43,647 nt of DNA from a virus. Below are positions 8,566-43,647 of the stretch, piece by piece. Numbering within the stretch: position 1 is the stretch's first letter; each line of letters opens with the position of its first letter. The notes beneath the pieces were generated by a model. That model made no database searches and was not told the origin of the DNA. It saw only the letters and a list, made by a program, of their open reading frames with translations. The position numbers were made by a program, and so were the translations under genes. The DNA lies in IMG/VR virus record IMGVR_UViG_3300020202_000118, positions 1 through 43,647 of that record; one strand, written 5' to 3'.

Positions 8566-8706
8566 AAGTCAGCACAAGACTAAAATTTAAAACGCTCGAC
8601 TGTGCAGAGTTGAGCAGTGTTAGGGAGAATTCCCATAAATACTGTCTCTTCTGCACAAGAGACTTTAGCCCGTTCGTAGGTTAATCCCTATGGACGGGCT
8701 TTTTTT
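8566..8706 (+). ncRNA. structured leader or sRNA before the O-antigen operon
   Basis: About 140 nt without a gene. Hairpins: CAGTGTT-A-GGGA-GAAT-TCCC-ATA-AATACTG (8615-8644); GTCTCTT-CTGCAC-AAGAGAC (8644-8663); and the terminator. TGTGCAG at 8601-8607 is the exact complement of the loop of the second hairpin (CTGCACA 8651-8657), so a pseudoknot or alternative fold can form. The RNA would end in seven T directly before the ATG of the next gene, which has no ordinary ribosome binding site. It is either a free-standing sRNA or a riboswitch/attenuator-like leader. No known family recognised. Confidence 0.6.
8667..8706 (+). terminator. rho-independent terminator abutting a start codon
   Basis: AGCCCGT (8667-8673) pairs with ACGGGCT (8694-8700), with an inner TAGG/CCTA stem, followed by an unbroken run of seven T. 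The ATG of the next gene is at 8707, leaving no room for a binding site outside the hairpin. Confidence 0.75.
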
Positions 8707-9006
8707 ATGAAAAAAATCGCCGCGGCCGTCACCGTTTTGTTGTCGCTTATCGTTATTTACAACGTTGCTCTTTCGGTCCAGGCGAAAGTCATAGGGATTT
8801 TCAGCAACCTAGGGCTTTCATCGACTGATATAAGCGCCATGAGGAATTTTTTAGACCATTACGAGAAACGTCTAGAAGGCATGATGGGCGGGCCCTTGGA
8901 AGATATAGCCTATCTTGAGTTTCAAAAATTGCAGTATGAAAAAGAGATCATCGAAAAAGCCGAGAAGTTTGTAAGAAACCTTGAGAGCGTGAACCAAATT
9001 TCATGA
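8707..9006 (+). CDS. small exported or membrane-anchored protein
   Basis: 99 residues. MKKIAAAVTVLLSLIVIYNVALSVQA is a signal peptide or anchor, which fixes the start although no ribosome binding site precedes it. The mature part is helical with a coiled-coil-like end (EIIEKAEKFVRNLESV). It overlaps the O-antigen ligase-like gene by four bases and would be made with it, so it may be a periplasmic partner that modulates the host surface polysaccharide. No family recognised. Confidence 0.7.
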   Translation: MKKIAAAVTVLLSLIVIYNVALSVQAKVIGIFSNLGLSSTDISAMRNFLDHYEKRLEGMMGGPLEDIAYLEFQKLQYEKEIIEKAEKFVRNLESVNQIS

Positions 9007-30060: not shown

Positions 30061-30504
30061 TTATGTTTTAGGATAAGAAATCAACTGATTTAGGTCGCCA
30101 TAGAAAGGAAATGCAGCATGACAATTGGGGCAACCGAAAGATCCGCGAGTGAATCCGGGGTTGTTGTTGACAAGAGCGATTGGCATACGAACTTTGTTAA
30201 AACAGACGTTGCAGAAAAGCTCAGACGTGCCGGTGAGACGATAAACGAAAGTAAATTGACAAAGCTCGAACTTGTGATATTTCTTCTTTTCTTCCTCCCA
30301 TCTGTCGTAATCGGCTATTTTATTCTGGAGGGACACTATCGCCTTATCCTTTTCAAGAACCTTATCACGAAGATCAAATATTTGAGATTGAAAATCGTTA
30401 ATGGTCGTTTGAAGGTCGTTTATGAGAGAGACAGCTTGGAGCTTATCCGCGCCTCCAACGAACTTTTGAACAAGGTCGAGAAGTTTCTTGGCCGTATCAA
30501 TCAT
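30061..30504 (-). CDS. coiled-coil zinc-finger moron protein
   Basis: ATG at 30504 has AGGAG five bases upstream; a longer start at 30543 would place coding sequence in the attenuator hairpin. 147 residues: coiled coil (about 1-70, MIDTAKKLLDLVQKF, LRDKVLEKDKAIVSLQNKI) then FCNVCF and CPNCH for zinc. This plan is common in prophage and genome-island proteins of unknown role. It is the only minus-strand gene in the late region and has its own promoter and leader, so it is likely expressed in the lysogen. Confidence 0.75.
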   Translation of the reverse strand: MIDTAKKLLDLVQKFVGGADKLQAVSLINDLQTTINDFQSQIFDLRDKVLEKDKAIVSLQNKIADYDRWEEEKKKYHKFELCQFTFVYRLTGTSELFCNVCFNKVRMPIALVNNNPGFTRGSFGCPNCHAAFPFYGDLNQLISYPKT

Positions 30505-30513
30505 GGTGTCTCC

Positions 30514-30610
30514 TAAAATAAAAAGCCCCACGGAACCGACCAAGGAAACGTGGGGCGAAAGGGCATAGCCCTTTTATAAAGCAAGATTGTCTTTTGGTCG
30601 GTTCAAAAAC
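30514..30610 (-). ncRNA. pseudoknotted attenuator leader of the minus-strand gene
   Basis: On the minus strand the RNA would begin near 30610 and read GAACCGACCAA (30604-30594), a small hairpin AAGGGC-TAT-GCCCTT, then the stem GCCCCACG/CGTGGGGC (30556-30549 with 30532-30525) followed by TTTTTATTTT. The loop of the last stem contains TTGGTCGGTTC (30543-30533), an 11-base perfect complement of the upstream segment. The T-tract ends at the Shine-Dalgarno of the gene. Pairing to the loop could switch between termination and read-through. Confidence 0.6.
30525..30556 (-). terminator. terminator/attenuator hairpin
   Basis: Eight-base-pair stem GCCCCACG/CGTGGGGC with a 16-base loop and a following T-rich run on the minus strand (30524-30514). 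It stands between the predicted promoter and the gene, so it terminates short transcripts of the gene's own leader. Confidence 0.65.
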
Positions 30611-30616
30611 GATTGG

Positions 30617-30645
30617 ATAATATCAAATATGTCGAACATTGAAAA
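30617..30645 (-). promoter_or_regulatory. minus-strand sigma70-type promoter
   Basis: On the minus strand TTTTCA (30645-30640), a 17-base spacer and TATTAT (30622-30617) predict a start near 30610, just before the loop-complementary segment. It overlaps the start region of the giant plus-strand gene, whose own possible -10 (GATAAT, 30616-30621) uses the same bases. Confidence 0.4.
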
Positions 30646-33600
30646 GAAGAAACCGAGTCTTGAAATTGCAGCACCCGAAAAGGAAATCGGATTCCCTATA
30701 GAATCCGCAGGCCCCTTGCAAATTGGGGCCAACCTCTTTAAAAATCGGACACTTAGCGAAGGCGTTCCGTCAGGCGTAAAATCTGGTGGGGCGTCTTTGC
30801 TTCGCGGGTTTCTTGAGGGCGCCCCGATCCTCGCTAGGGGCACAGCTATGGGAGGATTTTCTCAGGCAGCGGCCGGGGAATTTTTACCAGCTCCCGACAT
30901 CCCCGACCCTTTGGCCGATTTTAAGGGGTTCCTGAAAGACGTAGAAGACTCAAACAACTATACCGCCAAGCATTACGAAGGCGAGAGCTTTCCTTCCTTA
31001 TTCAAGAAATTCGCCGAAACCAAATCGCCGGATGACTTTAATAGGTTCGTAGATTACACGGTAAACCGCGTTTCTCAGCAGCTCCCCACCCTAGCCGCGC
31101 TATGGGGCGCTGCTTCGGTTGGCGTTCCGGCCCCTCTTGCTCTGTCGATCCTCGGGACTTCTGCGGCCGGCAATCAATACTCCGAAGATGAAGATGCCGA
31201 TCTTTCGGAAAAAGACCGCATGTCGAGGGCGTTCCAATCCGGGCTTATGGAGGCCGGAACCGAAGGGCTTTCTTTTGGACTGAAAGGTGCAGCAATGGCC
31301 GGGAAATCCGCATTAGAAGCGATCCCCGGCATTAAACCTATCCTAGCTAGGGCAATCGCCAAGGGTGGGGCGGGGGTTTTTAATAAAGCAGCAAAGGCCA
31401 TAGGGGCAACTCCGGCACGAAGGCTCATATCAAATACGCTTATTAATATGTTCGGCGAAGGCTCTGAGGAAGTCGTGAACGAAATAGGTCAAATCATGTC
31501 TGACGAACATTATGGCGTCCGCATGTATTCGACCCAGGAAAAACTCTATGCCGCAATCGAGGCCTTTGGAATAGGTTCTATTGCAACTGGAGTTGTGGGT
31601 TCTCCCATGATCGCAGCCGTCGAACTTCAAGACCGCAGGCAAGCCGGAAACCTTCCGACACCCGAAGAACTTTTCACCATTTCAACGATCATCAAGGTCT
31701 ATAAAAATGGCCTTCCTGGTTCGGTAAATCCTGAGAACCAGATCCATATCGTAGACGGAGATGTGATTGTCCTCGAATCCCTAGTAGACGATATGATCCA
31801 AAAGCAGGAATGGCGAGACGACCAGGGTTCGGGAACACTTGAGGCTTTGGGCGGCGAGATGCTTAAAGCGGTTCAAAATGAGAGAGGTAGCATTCGCCTT
31901 CCTGACATTGATCCTGAGAAAGTTCAAGGGATCTATCAGGGTGTTATGAACCGCATGCAATCTATTGAAGATACGGTCAAGAAGGCGAAGAAGTTGGGTG
32001 CCGAAATCCTACCCGGGGAAGACCCTGCGCTTAGAGCAAGATCGTACTTAGGAATCGAGCAAAAGGTAAATACGATGCTCGAAGACAAAACTTTCCATAT
32101 TACTCGGGATGGAGAGATCCAGATTAGCGGAGAAGGCTTAAAGCCGATTCTTGAAGACTATGAGAAAACAAGCCCTATTAAAAACGAAAAGCGGCGGCGG
32201 CAAGACCTCAAGGATTATCTTATCTCCAAGCGAATTGTAGAGGACTTGCAGCGGGCAAAAAGCGAATTTGACGATGACTTTATAGCCTCCCCCCAGCAGA
32301 CGGCAGACGCAAAGCAAAAACTCGCCGAGCTACAATCAAGCTATGGCAGGGAATTTTCCGTTTTAGAGAATACAGCCAATAGGCTTTATTCATTCCAGAG
32401 AAGGGTCTTATACAACCTTGTTGATAGCGGAAATATGTCTCCCGAACAGTTCAACAAGATCGTGGCCTTGAACCCTCATTACGCCTCTTTCGAGCGCGTG
32501 CTTGACGAGCAGGAGAACGCAGGGACGCCGATAAGCCGGCGACGTTTCACCGGGGCAAAGTCGCCTATCAAAAGAATCAAGGGCTCAGAACGCGAGATTC
32601 ACGATCCCATTGAAAGCGTTATCAAAAACACTTACCAGATCATGGACCGGGCAGAAAGAAATTATGTTGCCCGCGGCATCGCCAATCTAGCAGATGTGCT
32701 ACCGGATGAAATTAAGCCAATGGACCCGAGGATGGTTCCGGTGGCTACGGAAGACTTCCAAGTGCAGGTAGACCCTATCCTAAAGGGAAAGCTGACCCAG
32801 GTTATTAAAAACCTTCACGGTAAGTTCGAGCAAAAATTTAATATTGGCGGCGCAAGGCTTGGGTACTACGTTCATCCCTCGAATGAAATCGTGACAAAGA
32901 TAGGCTCTAGAGAAGACGTATTGGCCCATGAGGTGGGCCATTTTCTGGACATGGTTTACGGGCTAGAGGAGAAGCTGGTAAACAACCCCGAAACCAATAA
33001 AGAACTTCGTATTATCGCGGACAAACGCTATGAAGGCGCAGAGGTCACGGAAGGCTATAAAAAATACGTTAGGAAGGGAAGCGAGAAGGTCGCTGCGCTA
33101 GTGGACGCTTTTATCACGAAGCCTTACCTAGTCGATGAACTCGCCCCAAAATCCGGGAAAGTCCTTAAAGACTTATTTGAACAGCATGAAGAATTAGCAC
33201 CATTGCGTGGTGCAAGACCTGGACTTGCCATTAGTACGGAAAAGTTTAGCAAAACCATATTCAGGCCGTCTCCGTTTGTTCCTAAAGGAAACGTGATCGA
33301 ATATTACGATAACGGGAACCGCCTTTTTGTAGAGGTTAGCCCTAATCTTTATAAGGCGATGACGGGCCTAAATGAAACCTCCCTTGGTCTTTTGACTAGA
33401 ATTCTTGCCGTTCCGGCGCAATGGCTTCGCAAAGGCGCAACGCTAACGCCTGAATTTATGGCAAGGAACCCCATTAGGGACCAATTCACGGCCTTTTTAA
33501 ATACGAACATAGGCTTCATACCGTTCGTAGACCCAGCATTCGCCTTAGCGGACATACTCGGCAAAAAGCAGGCTTATTACGATTGGATGCGTTCTGGCGG

Positions 33601-34900
33601 GGCCTACTCCGGATTTGTGGAACTCAACCGAAAAAGCCTCAAGAAGAGACTCGATAAGATCATGGATAAACCTGATCTCTTAAGGAGTCTTAATATCATC
33701 GCAACCGCCGAGAGCCTAAGCCAGCTATTCGAGCAAGCAACGCGTGTCGGTGTCTATAAAGCGGCCGTTCGTAAGGGGCTAAGTCCGGTCGAGGCCGGGT
33801 TTCAAAGCCGGGAGGCAACGACCGATTTTGCAAGGCGTGGTTCGCAGACCAAAGAAATCAATGCGGCCGTAGCCTTTTTTAATGCCGGTCTCCAGGGCGT
33901 CGATAAGGCGTTCCGAGCGGCTGCAGAAAATCCTATAGGTTTAACCGTTAAAGCATTGGCAACTATCACCTTGCCGTCCATTTTGCTTTATATGCTTAAT
34001 GCAGACGATCCCGACTATGAGGAAATCCCGCGATGGCAGAAGAACCTTTTTTGGTTAATCAAAATCCCCAATACGCGGACTTTTATCAGAATACCTAAAC
34101 CGTTCATGTACGGCCAGATTTTCGGAACCATGCCCGAGCGGTTCCTAGATTATATGAAAACTCATAACAAAGAGGAGCTTCTGAGCTTGGCGAAGTCATT
34201 GTATGATTCGGTGAGCCCCATAAGCGGGGATCCGGCAACCGGGCTATTGGCGACGGCAGTAAAGCCATTTGTCGAATATGGAGCCAATTGGAATTTCTTT
34301 CGTCAAAGGCCTGTTGTGCCTTATTGGAAGGCTAAACTACACCCATCAGAGCAATATGATTCTAAAACCACCGAAACAGCAAAGGTTATCGGGCGAGGTC
34401 TTAAATTTCCTCCGGCTCATATCGAAAACTTTACGCAAGGTTGGTTCGGTGGATCCGGAATGTATGCCCTTCAATTGTCTGACCAAGCCTTGAGGGCAGC
34501 AAAAAGGCTATCAGGCGAAGAAGTTGCGCCTGGCAAGCCCTTAGAAATTGCGGACATTCCTCTCGTTAAGGGGTTTTTAACTAAGCCGTCGGGCTCTCCT
34601 GAAAGCGTAGCGACTTTTTTCAAAAATTTTCGCCGAATCGAAACCTCTCATTTGACTGTTATGAAAATGCTCCGGGACGGTAGAGCTGAAGAGGCTAGGT
34701 TATTTGCCAAGAAGCATGGGGAAGGTAGATATTACAAAGCAGCAAGAAAAATTTCCCGAGCATTAAACCGGGTGGATCAAAGAATAGAAGAAGTTTCTAA
34801 ATGGCAAGCAAGCGACTTTGAGAAGAGAGCTGAATTGAACAAACTGAATAATTTCAAAATAGGCATTGCCAAAAAGGCGAATGAAATTTTTAAATTTTAA
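30629..34900 (+). CDS. giant virion ejection protein with metallopeptidase motif and LPD38-like region
   Basis: 1423 residues from ATG 30629; TTG 30587 would add 14 residues but lies in the attenuator region. Residues near 767-771 are HEVGH followed by FLDMVYGLEE, a zincin-type HExxH site (ligating His pair plus catalytic Glu). Near 943 MARNPIRDQFTAF, with PFVDPAFALADILG after it, resembles the large polyvalent-protein domain LPD38. Ala/Gly-rich helices (about 60-250) suggest membrane insertion. Such proteins ride in the capsid and are injected with DNA to cross the envelope. Domain names are inferred by eye. Confidence 0.75.
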   Translation: MSNIEKKKPSLEIAAPEKEIGFPIESAGPLQIGANLFKNRTLSEGVPSGVKSGGASLLRGFLEGAPILARGTAMGGFSQAAAGEFLPAPDIPDPLADFKGFLKDVEDSNNYTAKHYEGESFPSLFKKFAETKSPDDFNRFVDYTVNRVSQQLPTLAALWGAASVGVPAPLALSILGTSAAGNQYSEDEDADLSEKDRMSRAFQSGLMEAGTEGLSFGLKGAAMAGKSALEAIPGIKPILARAIAKGGAGVFNKAAKAIGATPARRLISNTLINMFGEGSEEVVNEIGQIMSDEHYGVRMYSTQEKLYAAIEAFGIGSIATGVVGSPMIAAVELQDRRQAGNLPTPEELFTISTIIKVYKNGLPGSVNPENQIHIVDGDVIVLESLVDDMIQKQEWRDDQGSGTLEALGGEMLKAVQNERGSIRLPDIDPEKVQGIYQGVMNRMQSIEDTVKKAKKLGAEILPGEDPALRARSYLGIEQKVNTMLEDKTFHITRDGEIQISGEGLKPILEDYEKTSPIKNEKRRRQDLKDYLISKRIVEDLQRAKSEFDDDFIASPQQTADAKQKLAELQSSYGREFSVLENTANRLYSFQRRVLYNLVDSGNMSPEQFNKIVALNPHYASFERVLDEQENAGTPISRRRFTGAKSPIKRIKGSEREIHDPIESVIKNTYQIMDRAERNYVARGIANLADVLPDEIKPMDPRMVPVATEDFQVQVDPILKGKLTQVIKNLHGKFEQKFNIGGARLGYYVHPSNEIVTKIGSREDVLAHEVGHFLDMVYGLEEKLVNNPETNKELRIIADKRYEGAEVTEGYKKYVRKGSEKVAALVDAFITKPYLVDELAPKSGKVLKDLFEQHEELAPLRGARPGLAISTEKFSKTIFRPSPFVPKGNVIEYYDNGNRLFVEVSPNLYKAMTGLNETSLGLLTRILAVPAQWLRKGATLTPEFMARNPIRDQFTAFLNTNIGFIPFVDPAFALADILGKKQAYYDWMRSGGAYSGFVELNRKSLKKRLDKIMDKPDLLRSLNIIATAESLSQLFEQATRVGVYKAAVRKGLSPVEAGFQSREATTDFARRGSQTKEINAAVAFFNAGLQGVDKAFRAAAENPIGLTVKALATITLPSILLYMLNADDPDYEEIPRWQKNLFWLIKIPNTRTFIRIPKPFMYGQIFGTMPERFLDYMKTHNKEELLSLAKSLYDSVSPISGDPATGLLATAVKPFVEYGANWNFFRQRPVVPYWKAKLHPSEQYDSKTTETAKVIGRGLKFPPAHIENFTQGWFGGSGMYALQLSDQALRAAKRLSGEEVAPGKPLEIADIPLVKGFLTKPSGSPESVATFFKNFRRIETSHLTVMKMLRDGRAEEARLFAKKHGEGRYYKAARKISRALNRVDQRIEEVSKWQASDFEKRAELNKLNNFKIGIAKKANEIFKF

Positions 34901-36716: not shown

Positions 36717-37631
36717 ATGAAAAGACCTTCTAAAATTAAACTCATGTCCGAACAGGAAAGCATGCTCGATAGGTATTTAAACTACCTTCATTACAACATG
36801 GGCTTTAAACGCGCCACGCTTCAGAATAAGAGGCAGCATTTAGGGCTTCTCTATTCCGTTCATGGCGGAGAAATACTTTGGATCTCGGACTACAACACGA
36901 TCCACGGTTTAATATTGAGGGCCGCAGAAAGGGGATGTAGAAAACCATGGGACCGGAACACCACGCATAAATGTTTCTGCTACATGAAAGACTATTATTG
37001 GTGGGCGAACACCGTAGCGAACGTCGTTCCGCACAATCCCATGGCGAACGGGTTTAAATATAGAAAGGCCCCTCGAAAAGAGCCGGTTGTTTTAAGAAAG
37101 GAATTGTGGACTAAGTTATGGGCCTCTCCGTTTATGACGGTAAGAGATATTGCGATCCATATTTTATTTGAAGCAACCGGAGTAAGAAAGGCGGAGCTTG
37201 TGAGTTTAAACGTGGGGGATTGTGATTTCAGGTCTGGCGCGAGGATGATTCACGTCAAATGCGGCAAGAGAGATAAGTTCAGGTGGATACCGATTAATAA
37301 AAGGTACTCCATGTATATGAGGATTTATTTGAACTTCCTAAAAGAGCAGGGCCTTGCAGGACCGGAAATGCCGTTATTCCCAAGAGAGGACGGAAAAAGG
37401 TTAAGCGGAAACCGCGTCCATAGGATGATCCGGGAACGAGGATTAGAACTCGGAATCCGCGCTTTCCCTCACGCCAAAAGGCACGGCTATATCACCGAAC
37501 GCTTGGAAGACGGCATGCCGATCGAAGCAGTTAGGGAAGCGGCCGGCCACGCGAATATCAGTCAAACCGCAGATTACACCCACCTCGCAAAAGAGCATTT
37601 AAAGAAAGAGTTAGACCGGGTATCGGCGTAG
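36717..37631 (+). CDS. tyrosine recombinase integrase
   Basis: 304 residues. N-terminal helical core-binding (SAM-like) domain at about 12-110. The catalytic domain has all active residues: R157 (GVRKAEL), K184 (CGKRDK), H252-R255 (PHAKRHG), H278 (AAGHANI) and nucleophile Y287 (TADYTHL). It integrates the phage by recombining attP with attB. The zone 37.9-38.15 kb nearby holds a tRNA-type 3' end, a likely attP. The start site is weak, as AAAGGA is 17 bases away. Complete and probably active. Confidence 0.92.
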   Translation: MKRPSKIKLMSEQESMLDRYLNYLHYNMGFKRATLQNKRQHLGLLYSVHGGEILWISDYNTIHGLILRAAERGCRKPWDRNTTHKCFCYMKDYYWWANTVANVVPHNPMANGFKYRKAPRKEPVVLRKELWTKLWASPFMTVRDIAIHILFEATGVRKAELVSLNVGDCDFRSGARMIHVKCGKRDKFRWIPINKRYSMYMRIYLNFLKEQGLAGPEMPLFPREDGKRLSGNRVHRMIRERGLELGIRAFPHAKRHGYITERLEDGMPIEAVREAAGHANISQTADYTHLAKEHLKKELDRVSA

Positions 37632-37730: not shown

Positions 37731-37844
37731 ATGAAGCCTTGCAAATGTAAGAAATGCGGACACGAATGGCCTTCCAGAACCAAGAAACCGAAGTCTTGTC
37801 CGCGCTGTAAAAGGTACGATTGGGACGTTCAAAAAAGTGGTTGA
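37731..37844 (+). CDS. zinc-ribbon mini-protein
   Basis: ATG 37731 behind AGAAGGGGAAT. 37 residues; CKCKKCGHEWPSR and KSCPRCKRYDWD match a family of short zinc ribbons common in bacteria and phages (CxRCGHEW ... CPxCKSxxWD). Its own promoter and operator suggest expression in the lysogen or a regulatory role. Confidence 0.72.
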   Translation: MKPCKCKKCGHEWPSRTKKPKSCPRCKRYDWDVQKSG

Positions 37845-37868
37845 TTTTTGATTTTAAGAAGGTAGAAT
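37841..37868 (+). promoter_or_regulatory. promoter for the pseudoknotted RNA
   Basis: TTGATT (37841-37846), 16 bases, TAGAAT (37863-37868); start near 37875. Lies directly after the zinc-ribbon stop and drives a region without plausible genes. Confidence 0.5.
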
Positions 37869-37874
37869 TTGGTC

Positions 37875-38010
37875 ATGAACTTGGCAAAACTTGCGGAATC
37901 TATAAAAGGCTTGAAGGCAAACCAACCCCTAATTCAGTCCACGGGTGCGGGCCGTTTCTTGTCTTCAAGCCGGGGACCGCAAGCCCTCTGCCACGGTTCG
38001 CACCCTTTTT
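37875..38010 (+). ncRNA. pseudoknotted structured RNA with terminator
   Basis: Six exact complementary blocks in the order A B C B' A' C': CTTGCGG 37890-37896 with CCGCAAG 37977-37983; GGCTTGAAG 37908-37916 with CTTCAAGCC 37963-37971; and GGGTGCGGGCCGT 37943-37955 with ACGGTTCGCACCC 37993-38005 (13 pairs, two G-U). The C stem is followed by TTTTT and acts as terminator, while its loop holds B' and A', which pair with upstream sequence. Nested A/B helices cross the C helix, so a pseudoknot or a two-state switch results. Any open frames across it look non-coding. No known family recognised. Confidence 0.65.
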
Positions 38011-38019
38011 CTACCTCAA

Positions 38020-38127
38020 GGGCTGCTAGGCCTTCCTATATATCGTATTTGGCGCAGTAGTACCCGTGTCGGCGGTTCGATCCCGCCTCCCGCCAGATAC
38101 ACAATATAGATAAAAGCCTAGCAGCCC
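38020..38127 (+). other. probable attP core / tRNA-like hairpin element
   Basis: A perfect 12-bp inverted repeat GGGCTGCTAGGC (38020-38031) and GCCTAGCAGCCC (38116-38127) encloses further paired segments: CTATAT/ATATAG, GTAT/ATAC and TGGCG/CGCCA (38050-38054 with 38091-38095). At the centre is GGCGG-TTCGATC-CCGCC (38071-38087), a textbook tRNA T-arm, followed by TCCCGCCA. Two readings: attP carrying the 3' end of the tRNA gene used as attB, beside the integrase; or an RNA with a tRNA-like top. No full tRNA can be folded here, which favours attP. Confidence 0.55.
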
Positions 38128-38151
38128 CCAGGGGATAAACCTGGGGGTTTT
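38125..38151 (+). terminator. rho-independent terminator
   Basis: CCCCCAGG (38125-38132) and CCTGGGGG (38140-38147) form an eight-pair stem with a 7-base loop, followed by TTTT. It closes the non-coding region. Confidence 0.8.
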
Positions 38152-38159
38152 GCTTTATC

Positions 38160-38197
38160 GGCCCCTTATTTCAGGTTTACCCCTGATTTAAGGGGCC
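38160..38197. terminator. second near-perfect hairpin, possibly bidirectional terminator
   Basis: GGCCCCTTA/TAAGGGGCC (38160-38168 with 38189-38197) plus TCAGG/CCTGA, separated by a symmetric TT/TT loop, then GTTTCTATTT. It insulates the RlpA operon that follows. Confidence 0.65.
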
Positions 38198-38225
38198 GTT
38201 TCTATTTGGGCCCAGAGGAGAAAAA

Positions 38226-38762
38226 ATGAAATGGGAAGGTTCAAAGGAATCCATGAAGAAAACGCAAGGATCGACTTACGAATCATGTGCGAAAAGCTCG
38301 AAGGGCTTTTCTCGGATTACGAGGAAAGCAAAAACCCGGCTTTGCTCGGAGAAATACGCCTATGCCTGGCGGCGTATGGTGGTTTTTGGCGTGGGGTTAG
38401 GGACTCTCGTTCTAGCGATGAATTTGAAGGGTTTCGCACAAACCATAAACGGGACGGCAAGCTGGTACTCAACGGAGGCGTGTCAGTTCAATCCGAACCC
38501 GGCATGTCCTACGGCTTCCGGCAGGAGCTTGTATGAGCTCGAAGAAAAAGGCGAGAGGTTCGCGGCAGCGTGGGGCTTTCCTTTCGGAACACGAATTCGT
38601 GTCTGTAATGTGCGATCTGGCGATTGTACGACTGTCCATGTGTCAGATCGAGGCCCAGCTAAAAGACTTGGAAGGGTCATTGACCTCAGCCGGAAAGCTT
38701 TTGATGAAATCGCAGAACCGGAAGAAGGACTTATCCAAGTGAGGATGGAGGTTTTGTCATGA
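38226..38762 (+). CDS. RlpA-like cell-wall protein
   Basis: 178 residues from ATG 38226 behind AGAGGAG; an internal ATG at 38376 would give a 128-residue form starting with its membrane/signal segment (MVVFGVGLGTLVLAMNLKGFA). The rest is a double-psi beta-barrel of the RlpA type: GTASWYS near 76, PTASGRSLYE, FPFGTRIRVCN, and HVSDRGP with D141, ending KAFDEI...GLIQVRMEV. RlpA proteins cut peptidoglycan strands lacking stem peptides. In a phage it could serve as endolysin or entry enzyme. Three of the cysteines may form disulfides. The first 50 residues look like shadow of another frame, so the real start may be 38376. Confidence 0.75.
   Translation: MKWEGSKESMKKTQGSTYESCAKSSKGFSRITRKAKTRLCSEKYAYAWRRMVVFGVGLGTLVLAMNLKGFAQTINGTASWYSTEACQFNPNPACPTASGRSLYELEEKGERFAAAWGFPFGTRIRVCNVRSGDCTTVHVSDRGPAKRLGRVIDLSRKAFDEIAEPEEGLIQVRMEVLS
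38231..38536 (+). CDS. overlapping hypothetical protein (alternative frame of rlpA-like gene)
   Basis: 101 residues from ATG 38231, 10 bases after the same AGAGGAG. Residues 10-55 (ENARIDLRIMCEKLEGLFSD, ESKNPALLGEIRLCLAAYGG) look like a real helical protein, better than the other frame at that place. Overlaps the RlpA barrel by about 160 bases if that starts at 38376. Its end overlaps the next candidate by four bases. Real coding in both frames is possible but unproven. Confidence 0.4.
   Translation: MGRFKGIHEENARIDLRIMCEKLEGLFSDYEESKNPALLGEIRLCLAAYGGFWRGVRDSRSSDEFEGFRTNHKRDGKLVLNGGVSVQSEPGMSYGFRQELV
38533..38742 (+). CDS. overlapping hypothetical protein within the RlpA-like gene
   Basis: 69 residues in a third frame, ATGA overlap with the frame above. 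Basic start, then DLAIVRLSMCQIEAQLKDLEGSL, a plausible helix. It lies entirely inside the RlpA barrel sequence. A small lysis partner nested in another frame (as Rz1 in Rz) would be a precedent, though no signal peptide is present here. Confidence 0.35.
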   Translation: MSSKKKARGSRQRGAFLSEHEFVSVMCDLAIVRLSMCQIEAQLKDLEGSLTSAGKLLMKSQNRKKDLSK

Positions 38763-39034
38763 AAATCAAAGTTACGTCAGAGCATATCTCCAAAGGGGTT
38801 TGTGGGGATGAAAAGAATTGCGCCATAGCCCTTGCCGTGATCGAGGCGCTTAACCTAGACCCTAGCTCGGTTGCGGTGGATACGGACGGCATCAGGTTTT
38901 ACGACGGCGAAGAGTTTTTCTGCCTTCGGAAAACCCCCGAATACGTCGCGGACTTCATCGACCAATTCGACGCAGACTTACCCGTGGGGCCTATCGAATT
39001 TGAATTAGAGCCTCCGGATTGGAGGGCGGCATGA
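38759..39034 (+). CDS. conserved phage protein
   Basis: 91 residues, ATGA overlap. KVTSEHISKGVCGDEKNCAIALAVIEAL then an acidic alpha/beta part (RKTPEYVADFIDQFD). The pattern CxxxxNCAIALA occurs in many short phage proteins without known function. Confidence 0.72.
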   Translation: MKIKVTSEHISKGVCGDEKNCAIALAVIEALNLDPSSVAVDTDGIRFYDGEEFFCLRKTPEYVADFIDQFDADLPVGPIEFELEPPDWRAA

Positions 39035-43041: not shown

Positions 43042-43634
43042 CCTATCAGAACGACAAGAAATTCAAAAAAGAAATGGTTTCCGAAATGGTTTGGCATCGA
43101 AAACAAGATAATTTAATCAAGGGAACTTATGCCAAAAACGGTAAATTTTGTGCGGTGGGCTGCGGTGTGGAGTCCTTAAACCGCAGGAAAGGTTTAGAAA
43201 TTAAGCATGACGATCATGCAGCCTACGCTAAGGCTTTAGGCATCCCCGAATGGCTGGCGAGGCTTGAAGACACGCTTTTTGAAAACCTTCCGAGCGAAGA
43301 ATCGAAAGAATTCCCCGTGAAATTTCTAAGGGCTATCCCGGTCGGGGTTGACCTTGAGCCGGTGAAATGGAGATTTTGCGCGTTTATCCTCAAGGAAAAC
43401 ATCGAGCGAGTCCTTGCCTTAAAAGACATTTCAGAAGACCTGAAAAAACAAGTTGTGGACGCGATCCGCGGCTGTCTCGCTTTACACGAACAGGCTGTTA
43501 AGTCTGGAAATTGGGACGAGTCGGCGGCGGAGTCGGCGGCGTGGTCGGCGAGGTCGGCGGCGTGGTCGGCGAGGTCGGCGGCTTATTCGAGATACGCAAA
43601 GGAGCTTCTTCGTCTTTTAAGGTCTGCTAAGTAA
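43035..43634 (+). CDS. wrap-around phage protein with Ser-Ala repeat tail
   Basis: ATG 43035 follows AAAAGGAGGAAGG; an earlier in-frame start at 43002 is weaker. 199 residues. The first 160 have SEMVWHRKQDNLIKGTY, CAVGCGVESL and helical repeats; the tail is a tandem of (E/W)SA(A/R)SAA units and ends in YSRYAKELLRLL. Phage proteins with such AAWSA repeats are frequent but of unknown function; some are labelled putative immunity proteins. The repeat crosses the contig junction. Confidence 0.8.
   Translation: MLTYQNDKKFKKEMVSEMVWHRKQDNLIKGTYAKNGKFCAVGCGVESLNRRKGLEIKHDDHAAYAKALGIPEWLARLEDTLFENLPSEESKEFPVKFLRAIPVGVDLEPVKWRFCAFILKENIERVLALKDISEDLKKQVVDAIRGCLALHEQAVKSGNWDESAAESAAWSARSAAWSARSAAYSRYAKELLRLLRSAK
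43518..43592 (+). repeat. in-frame tandem repeat, 12- and 21-bp units
   Basis: Two GAGTCGGCGGCG units (ESAA) are followed by two 21-base units encoding WSARSAA. The repeat keeps the frame, so copy-number change would lengthen or shorten the protein tail. The left copy near position 1 has a different upstream edge. Confidence 0.8.
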
Positions 43635-43647
43635 GAAAGGGCGGGGA
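43522..43647. repeat. right copy of 126-bp terminal direct repeat
   Basis: Identical to 10-135. See the left copy. It includes the stop of the repeat-bearing gene and the ribosome binding site of the replication initiator, which therefore follow each other in the circle. Confidence 0.9.

Follow-up and report, generated by a model that had tools for sequence, protein, structure and literature searches.

A possible RNA pseudoknot between the integrase gene and a probable attP site in a circular phage genome

The structure described here lies in a phage genome held as a single virus record of 43,647 bases in IMG/VR (IMGVR_UViG_3300020202_000118), the whole of which, positions 1 to 43,647, is the window that we have analyzed. 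Bases 11–135 recur as 43523–43647, and this terminal overlap shows the genome to be complete and circular. A 21-bp tandem repeat is found at the junction of the overlap, with ∼2.8 copies at each end (1–135 and 43523–43647), and may be the cause of the assembly break. The genome encodes replication, terminase, portal and capsid proteins together with a tyrosine integrase. The terminase and capsid proteins match those of known phages at 23–41%, and alignment of the portal protein reveals further relatives at 19–29% only. One viral contig has structural genes in common at ∼30–60%, including a relative of the capsid protein at 57%; neither the integrase nor the region discussed below has a match in its record. 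This is a phage with few close relatives in the collections searched.

On the + strand the region reads, in order, the integrase gene (int), a short zinc-ribbon ORF, the pseudoknot-like structure with its run of T, a copy of a tRNA 3′ end that is probably attP, terminators and the RlpA operon. The integrase (36717–37631) is a tyrosine recombinase of 304 aa resembling XerC and XerD (Pfam Phage_integrase, 8e-21; phrog_1, 2e-26), with XerC-like, XerD and XerA proteins as its nearest solved relatives. Its family matches begin at residue ∼10–16, so that an N-terminal arm-binding domain of the lambda type appears to be absent. The ORF that follows (37731–37844, 37 aa) has from its sequence the cysteine pattern of a zinc ribbon (CxCxxC...CxxC) and a good ribosome site, AGAAGGGG; its match to the HypA zinc finger is weak (4e-4), under the cut-off. 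The gene after the structure (38226–38762) carries a DPBB_1 lytic transglycolase (RlpA-like) domain. The neighboring 38759–39034 encodes an uncharacterized protein of 91 aa with relatives among the proteins of Gordonia phages (33–38%) and in phrog_19191, whereas the structural genes resemble other phages. A preliminary description correctly placed the structure between the integrase and RlpA operons, but overlooked the tRNA copy that lies in between.

The structure comprises six complementary blocks, arranged as A B C B′ A′ C′ and extending over 37890–38005 of the + strand and followed by TTTTT (38006–38010). A (37890–37896) pairs with A′ (37977–37983) to form 7 bp. B (37908–37920) and B′ (37959–37971) are an inverted repeat that forms 13 bp including one G-U; the 9 bp originally described (37908–37916 with 37963–37971) are present within this longer helix. 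C (37943–37955) lies inside the loop of B and pairs with C′ (37993–38005), forming 13 bp including two G-U. B′ and A′ together occupy 37959–37983, and C′ with the run of T provides a terminator-like end at 37993–38010. All six blocks, their pairing and the TTTTT after the last stem are borne out. The interval first proposed, 37841–38010, is indeed structured, but it is the left half only of a structured region that continues to ∼38198. The three imperfect helix positions are all G-U in the sense of the + strand, the direction of int. As evidence for a place in the int transcript this is weak, because no imperfect pair other than G-U is allowed by the helix search.

The summed helix score of A, B and C is −66.5 kcal/mol. 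Among 60,000 sequences obtained by dinucleotide shuffling the mean is −37.1 (sd 4.0) and the best is −62.0, so that none attains this value. With five T demanded behind the final helix, the shuffled sequences go no lower than −50.8. The pattern ranks first among 10,296 windows drawn from both strands of this phage and two others, and the second-best window (−57.3) comes from the same region; scores near −57 are found in another phage too. The structure is real, and far from chance.

How would such an RNA fold? The loop lengths of 22, 3 and 9 nt permit an H-type pseudoknot, in which the 9-nt loop would be tight if A is closed. Calculated without pseudoknots, the minimum-energy fold of 37870–38010 is −51.3 (z −3.0), and by ordinary folding this segment ranks 19th among 2,488 genome windows. 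In this nested fold A and B are paired with a probability of ∼1 and C/C′ with a probability of zero, half of C′ being taken up by 37876–37886. The alternative partner of C′ spans 37871–37886 on the + strand, with 37876–37886 pairing with 37989–38000, and 37871–37873 with 38002–38004. The product is a long hairpin that likewise ends beside the run of T, where its stem is weak. For the pseudoknot, a rough estimate that combines helix energies with penalties varied over a range lies at −49 to −54, so that within the error of the estimate the two folds are not distinguishable by energy. On these calculated energies the pseudoknot is possible, not proven, and the same holds for a switch between the two folds. 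During transcription the nested fold could be the first to form. As it too ends at the run of T, a transcript could have its 3′ end here in either fold.

The copy of a tRNA 3′ end begins ∼60 bases after the end of the pseudoknot, with the end of int ∼435 bp upstream, and starts just 5′ of the T-arm (GGCGG-TTCGATC-CCGCC, 38071–38087). An exact search of 11.3 million genome contigs with the 28-mer 38068–38095 found it in two species, where it forms in each case the 3′ end of a bacterial gene for tRNA-Met(CAT), and with one of these genes the identity covers 30 nt (38067–38096, + strand). At the DNA level, the genomes searched in two phyla (384 and 396) match the tRNA-like part of the region only, and the matched loci that were checked are tRNA genes, for tRNA-Met and in some cases tRNA-Phe. 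The attP of a tRNA-targeting phage is typically a copy of a tRNA 3′ end beside a tyrosine integrase in the circular phage genome. All of these elements are found here, and we therefore infer, strongly, that 38067–38096 is very probably the core of attP. A decayed phage tRNA was considered and set aside, as the 3′ part is perfect and the 5′ two-thirds are missing, for which attP is the better fit; GGCG and CAGTAGTA upstream of the copy bear a faint likeness to pieces of tRNA.

Unlike the usual attP of the tRNA type, the core is contained here within a 108-nt multi-stem palindrome (38020–38127, + strand), comprising 12 bp exact (38020–38031 with 38116–38127), 6 bp (38036–38041 with 38104–38109) and 10 bp including one G-U (38045–38054 with 38091–38100). 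The palindrome folds strongly on both strands, with the tRNA copy in its loop. The fold of 38010–38160 has a z of −4.2, and the stretch just downstream of the pseudoknot takes ranks 2 to 5, 7 and 8 among the 2,488 windows. The terminator scan finds an intrinsic-terminator-like hairpin just downstream of the probable attP (38123–38149, + strand), and a second hairpin (38159–38198, + strand), with 17-nt arms that are 88% complementary, lies 5′ of the RlpA gene.

Two other places in the genome are strongly structured. The top 140-nt window by structure is 8576–8715 (+ strand; score −7.8 versus mononucleotide shuffles), with a hairpin at 8594 carrying in its loop GTGCAG, which is able to pair with CTGCAC at 8651, and then a strong hairpin and TTTTTTT directly before the ORF at 8707. 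It has no match in phage DNA, its Rfam matches fall far under the curated thresholds, and it is a second candidate RNA of this genome. The other, 30451–30835 (+ strand), lies just 5′ of and at the start of a 1,437-aa ORF (30587–34900).

How general is the structure between int and attP? The opinion that the RNA is undescribed holds to the extent that there is no Rfam match above the gathering threshold and none in the collections searched. A blastn comparison with phages and plasmids gave no match to the region, nor did exact-pattern scans for relatives using the C/C′ stem with the run of T, or the tRNA end. The integrase, the terminase and the ORF at 38759, used as queries against viral contigs, returned no relatives usable for covariation. 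Integrase matches are present in 222 of the 384 genomes of one phylum, but these are weak, with an identity of no more than 41%, and resemble chromosomal XerC/D. As no relative was found, the structure is for now well supported in a single genome and does not make a family.

We consider that int transcription ends at the pseudoknot, which would be an elaborate terminator, give the transcript a folded 3′ end and insulate attP, and we give this reading a probability of about one half. Polymerase that has passed int and the zinc-ribbon ORF on one transcript would leave the A/B hairpin to fold, and the C′ stem would close right before UUUUU. The transcript would be let go before attP is crossed, and the fold might also protect the 3′ end of the mRNA. 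Together with the hairpin terminators after attP, the pseudoknot would insulate the insertion site from both sides. In the free phage this would keep transcription off attP. In the lysogen, where int and the pseudoknot would face the host at one end, int transcription would be stopped before it reached host DNA, while integration would rebuild the tRNA gene and the phage terminators placed behind it would end the tRNA transcript. The C/C′ helix is suited to such a role in being a G+C-rich stem of 13 bp with TTTTT directly after it. Its loop is not the short loop of a terminator; it is 37 nt long and contains B′ and A′, and the consensus terminator scan omits this end because its loop limit is 8. 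Such a loop, and a pseudoknot, are unusual for the intrinsic type, and there are only five T. If the ORF that runs through the region (below) is translated, ribosomes would open the structure.

The sib element of phage lambda lies beyond attP and is parted from int on integration; as a retroregulator it works through cleavage by RNase III, by which Int is lowered. Being on the int side of attP, the structure described here is not of the lambda sib type. Lambda sib is a site distal to int that is required for Int to be expressed differently from PI and PL, its two promoters (PMC2951348). The int–attP–tI/sib arrangement of lambda likewise has structured RNA at the int-distal end near attP that is able to influence int expression. 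Our segment 37871–38010 is similarly downstream of int on the same strand. It differs in the place of the pseudoknot, which comes after int and before attP, in having a second hairpin across attP, and in a stem that is pseudoknotted with its 37-nt loop; what integration would take away from int is no more than the right half of the palindrome at attP and the terminators that follow. By analogy, the pseudoknot would work like an int-distal terminator element. The resemblance to tRNA-targeting phages lies in the tRNA 3′-end copy, the neighboring tyrosine integrase and the circular genome.

An H-type pseudoknot with a Rho-independent terminator is also found in the type III antitoxin RNAs ToxI and CptI, which consist of a short unit repeated in tandem, placed ahead of a gene for an endoribonuclease (PMC5086642). 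The phage structure shares with them a possible H-type pseudoknot and a terminator-like end; it is a single large copy with no repeat array and no toxin gene, the next gene being RlpA-like, and we rejected this assignment. A pseudoknot is common to HDV-like ribozymes, riboswitches and tmRNA, and the downstream T-arm resembles a tRNA-like domain. The helix order of the HDV ribozyme differs from A B C B′ A′ C′, and an HDV-like ribozyme was dropped for this reason. The Rfam match to tmRNA comprises just 17 nt of the T-arm (10.6 bits), and no reverse transcriptase that would point to a retron was found among the proteins scanned, in a scan that was not exhaustive; both were set aside.

The alternative that survives best, which we nonetheless think rather unlikely, is a two-state switch in which C′ pairs either with C, giving the pseudoknot and a strong stem at the run of T, or with 37876–37886, giving the nested fold and a weak stem, so that a protein, ribosome or small molecule sets the balance of stopping and read-through. 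The earlier suggestion of a two-state switch holds in that there is a stable A/B stem and that C′ has two mutually exclusive partners of similar calculated energy, which makes it physically plausible. The energies are however a draw, as is common within error for strongly self-complementary sequence, the same run of T ends both states, and there is no ligand, partner protein or homologue to set beside it.

Two further alternatives we judge slightly less probable than the switch, and on a par with each other. The first is a free small RNA acting in trans, transcribed from its own promoter at 37841–37868. A compact fold of 116 nt ending in a run of T, in an intergenic position and with no Rfam relative, is what might be expected of one. 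The promoter that had been proposed for it, TTGATT-16-TAGAAT, scores 9/12, and six such matches occur in 5 kb compared with 6.2 expected from shuffles; this is the chance level, and a free RNA is consequently left without sequence support of its own. It has neither target nor homologue. The related idea of a decision-making RNA was based on position, and a place beside the probable attP would explain the structure better. The second is a small gene. An ORF of 63 aa (37869–38060, + strand) runs through the whole pseudoknot from a TTG start, with AAGAAGG ahead of it at good spacing, and could be a third gene of the int operon, with the pairing a by-product or a brake on ribosomes. Its codon score (0.046) falls between the coding and non-coding ranges: the first ∼30 codons score like the genes of this phage, but the remainder score like non-coding frames, and there is no Pfam match. 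The pairing is moreover far beyond that of shuffles. By eye there is no in-frame slippery heptamer before the pseudoknot, for which reason a −1 frameshift pseudoknot was also rejected.

Less probable again is a sensor of integration. The int transcript of the circular phage would fold the 38020–38127 hairpin across attP, preceded by the pseudoknot, exposing the transcript to cleavage or stopping it; integration would split the arms and so alter int expression in the lysogen, and the choice between pseudoknot and nested fold would set the transcription that reaches attP. A role of the inverted repeats as DNA, in binding the integrase or accessory factors in the left arm of attP, is improbable. 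The probable attP core, itself inside a large palindrome, is no more than 180 bp away, but where the repeats are imperfect the pairs are G-U in RNA and mismatches in DNA, the integrase seemingly has no arm-binding domain, and there is no convincing repeated motif of the arm type. Chance complementarity of no function, for which one might cite the similar scores in another phage and a conservation that is not demonstrated, is very improbable given the shuffles, the correctly placed run of T and a region among the most structured of the genome.

The means by which temperate phages guard recombination and host genes from transcription of int are understood in detail for few models. If our reading of the pseudoknot as the end of the int transcript is true, this phage would show a compact variant of such protection: a pseudoknotted end next to an attP enclosed by an RNA hairpin of its own, with integration as the event that would alter the RNA.
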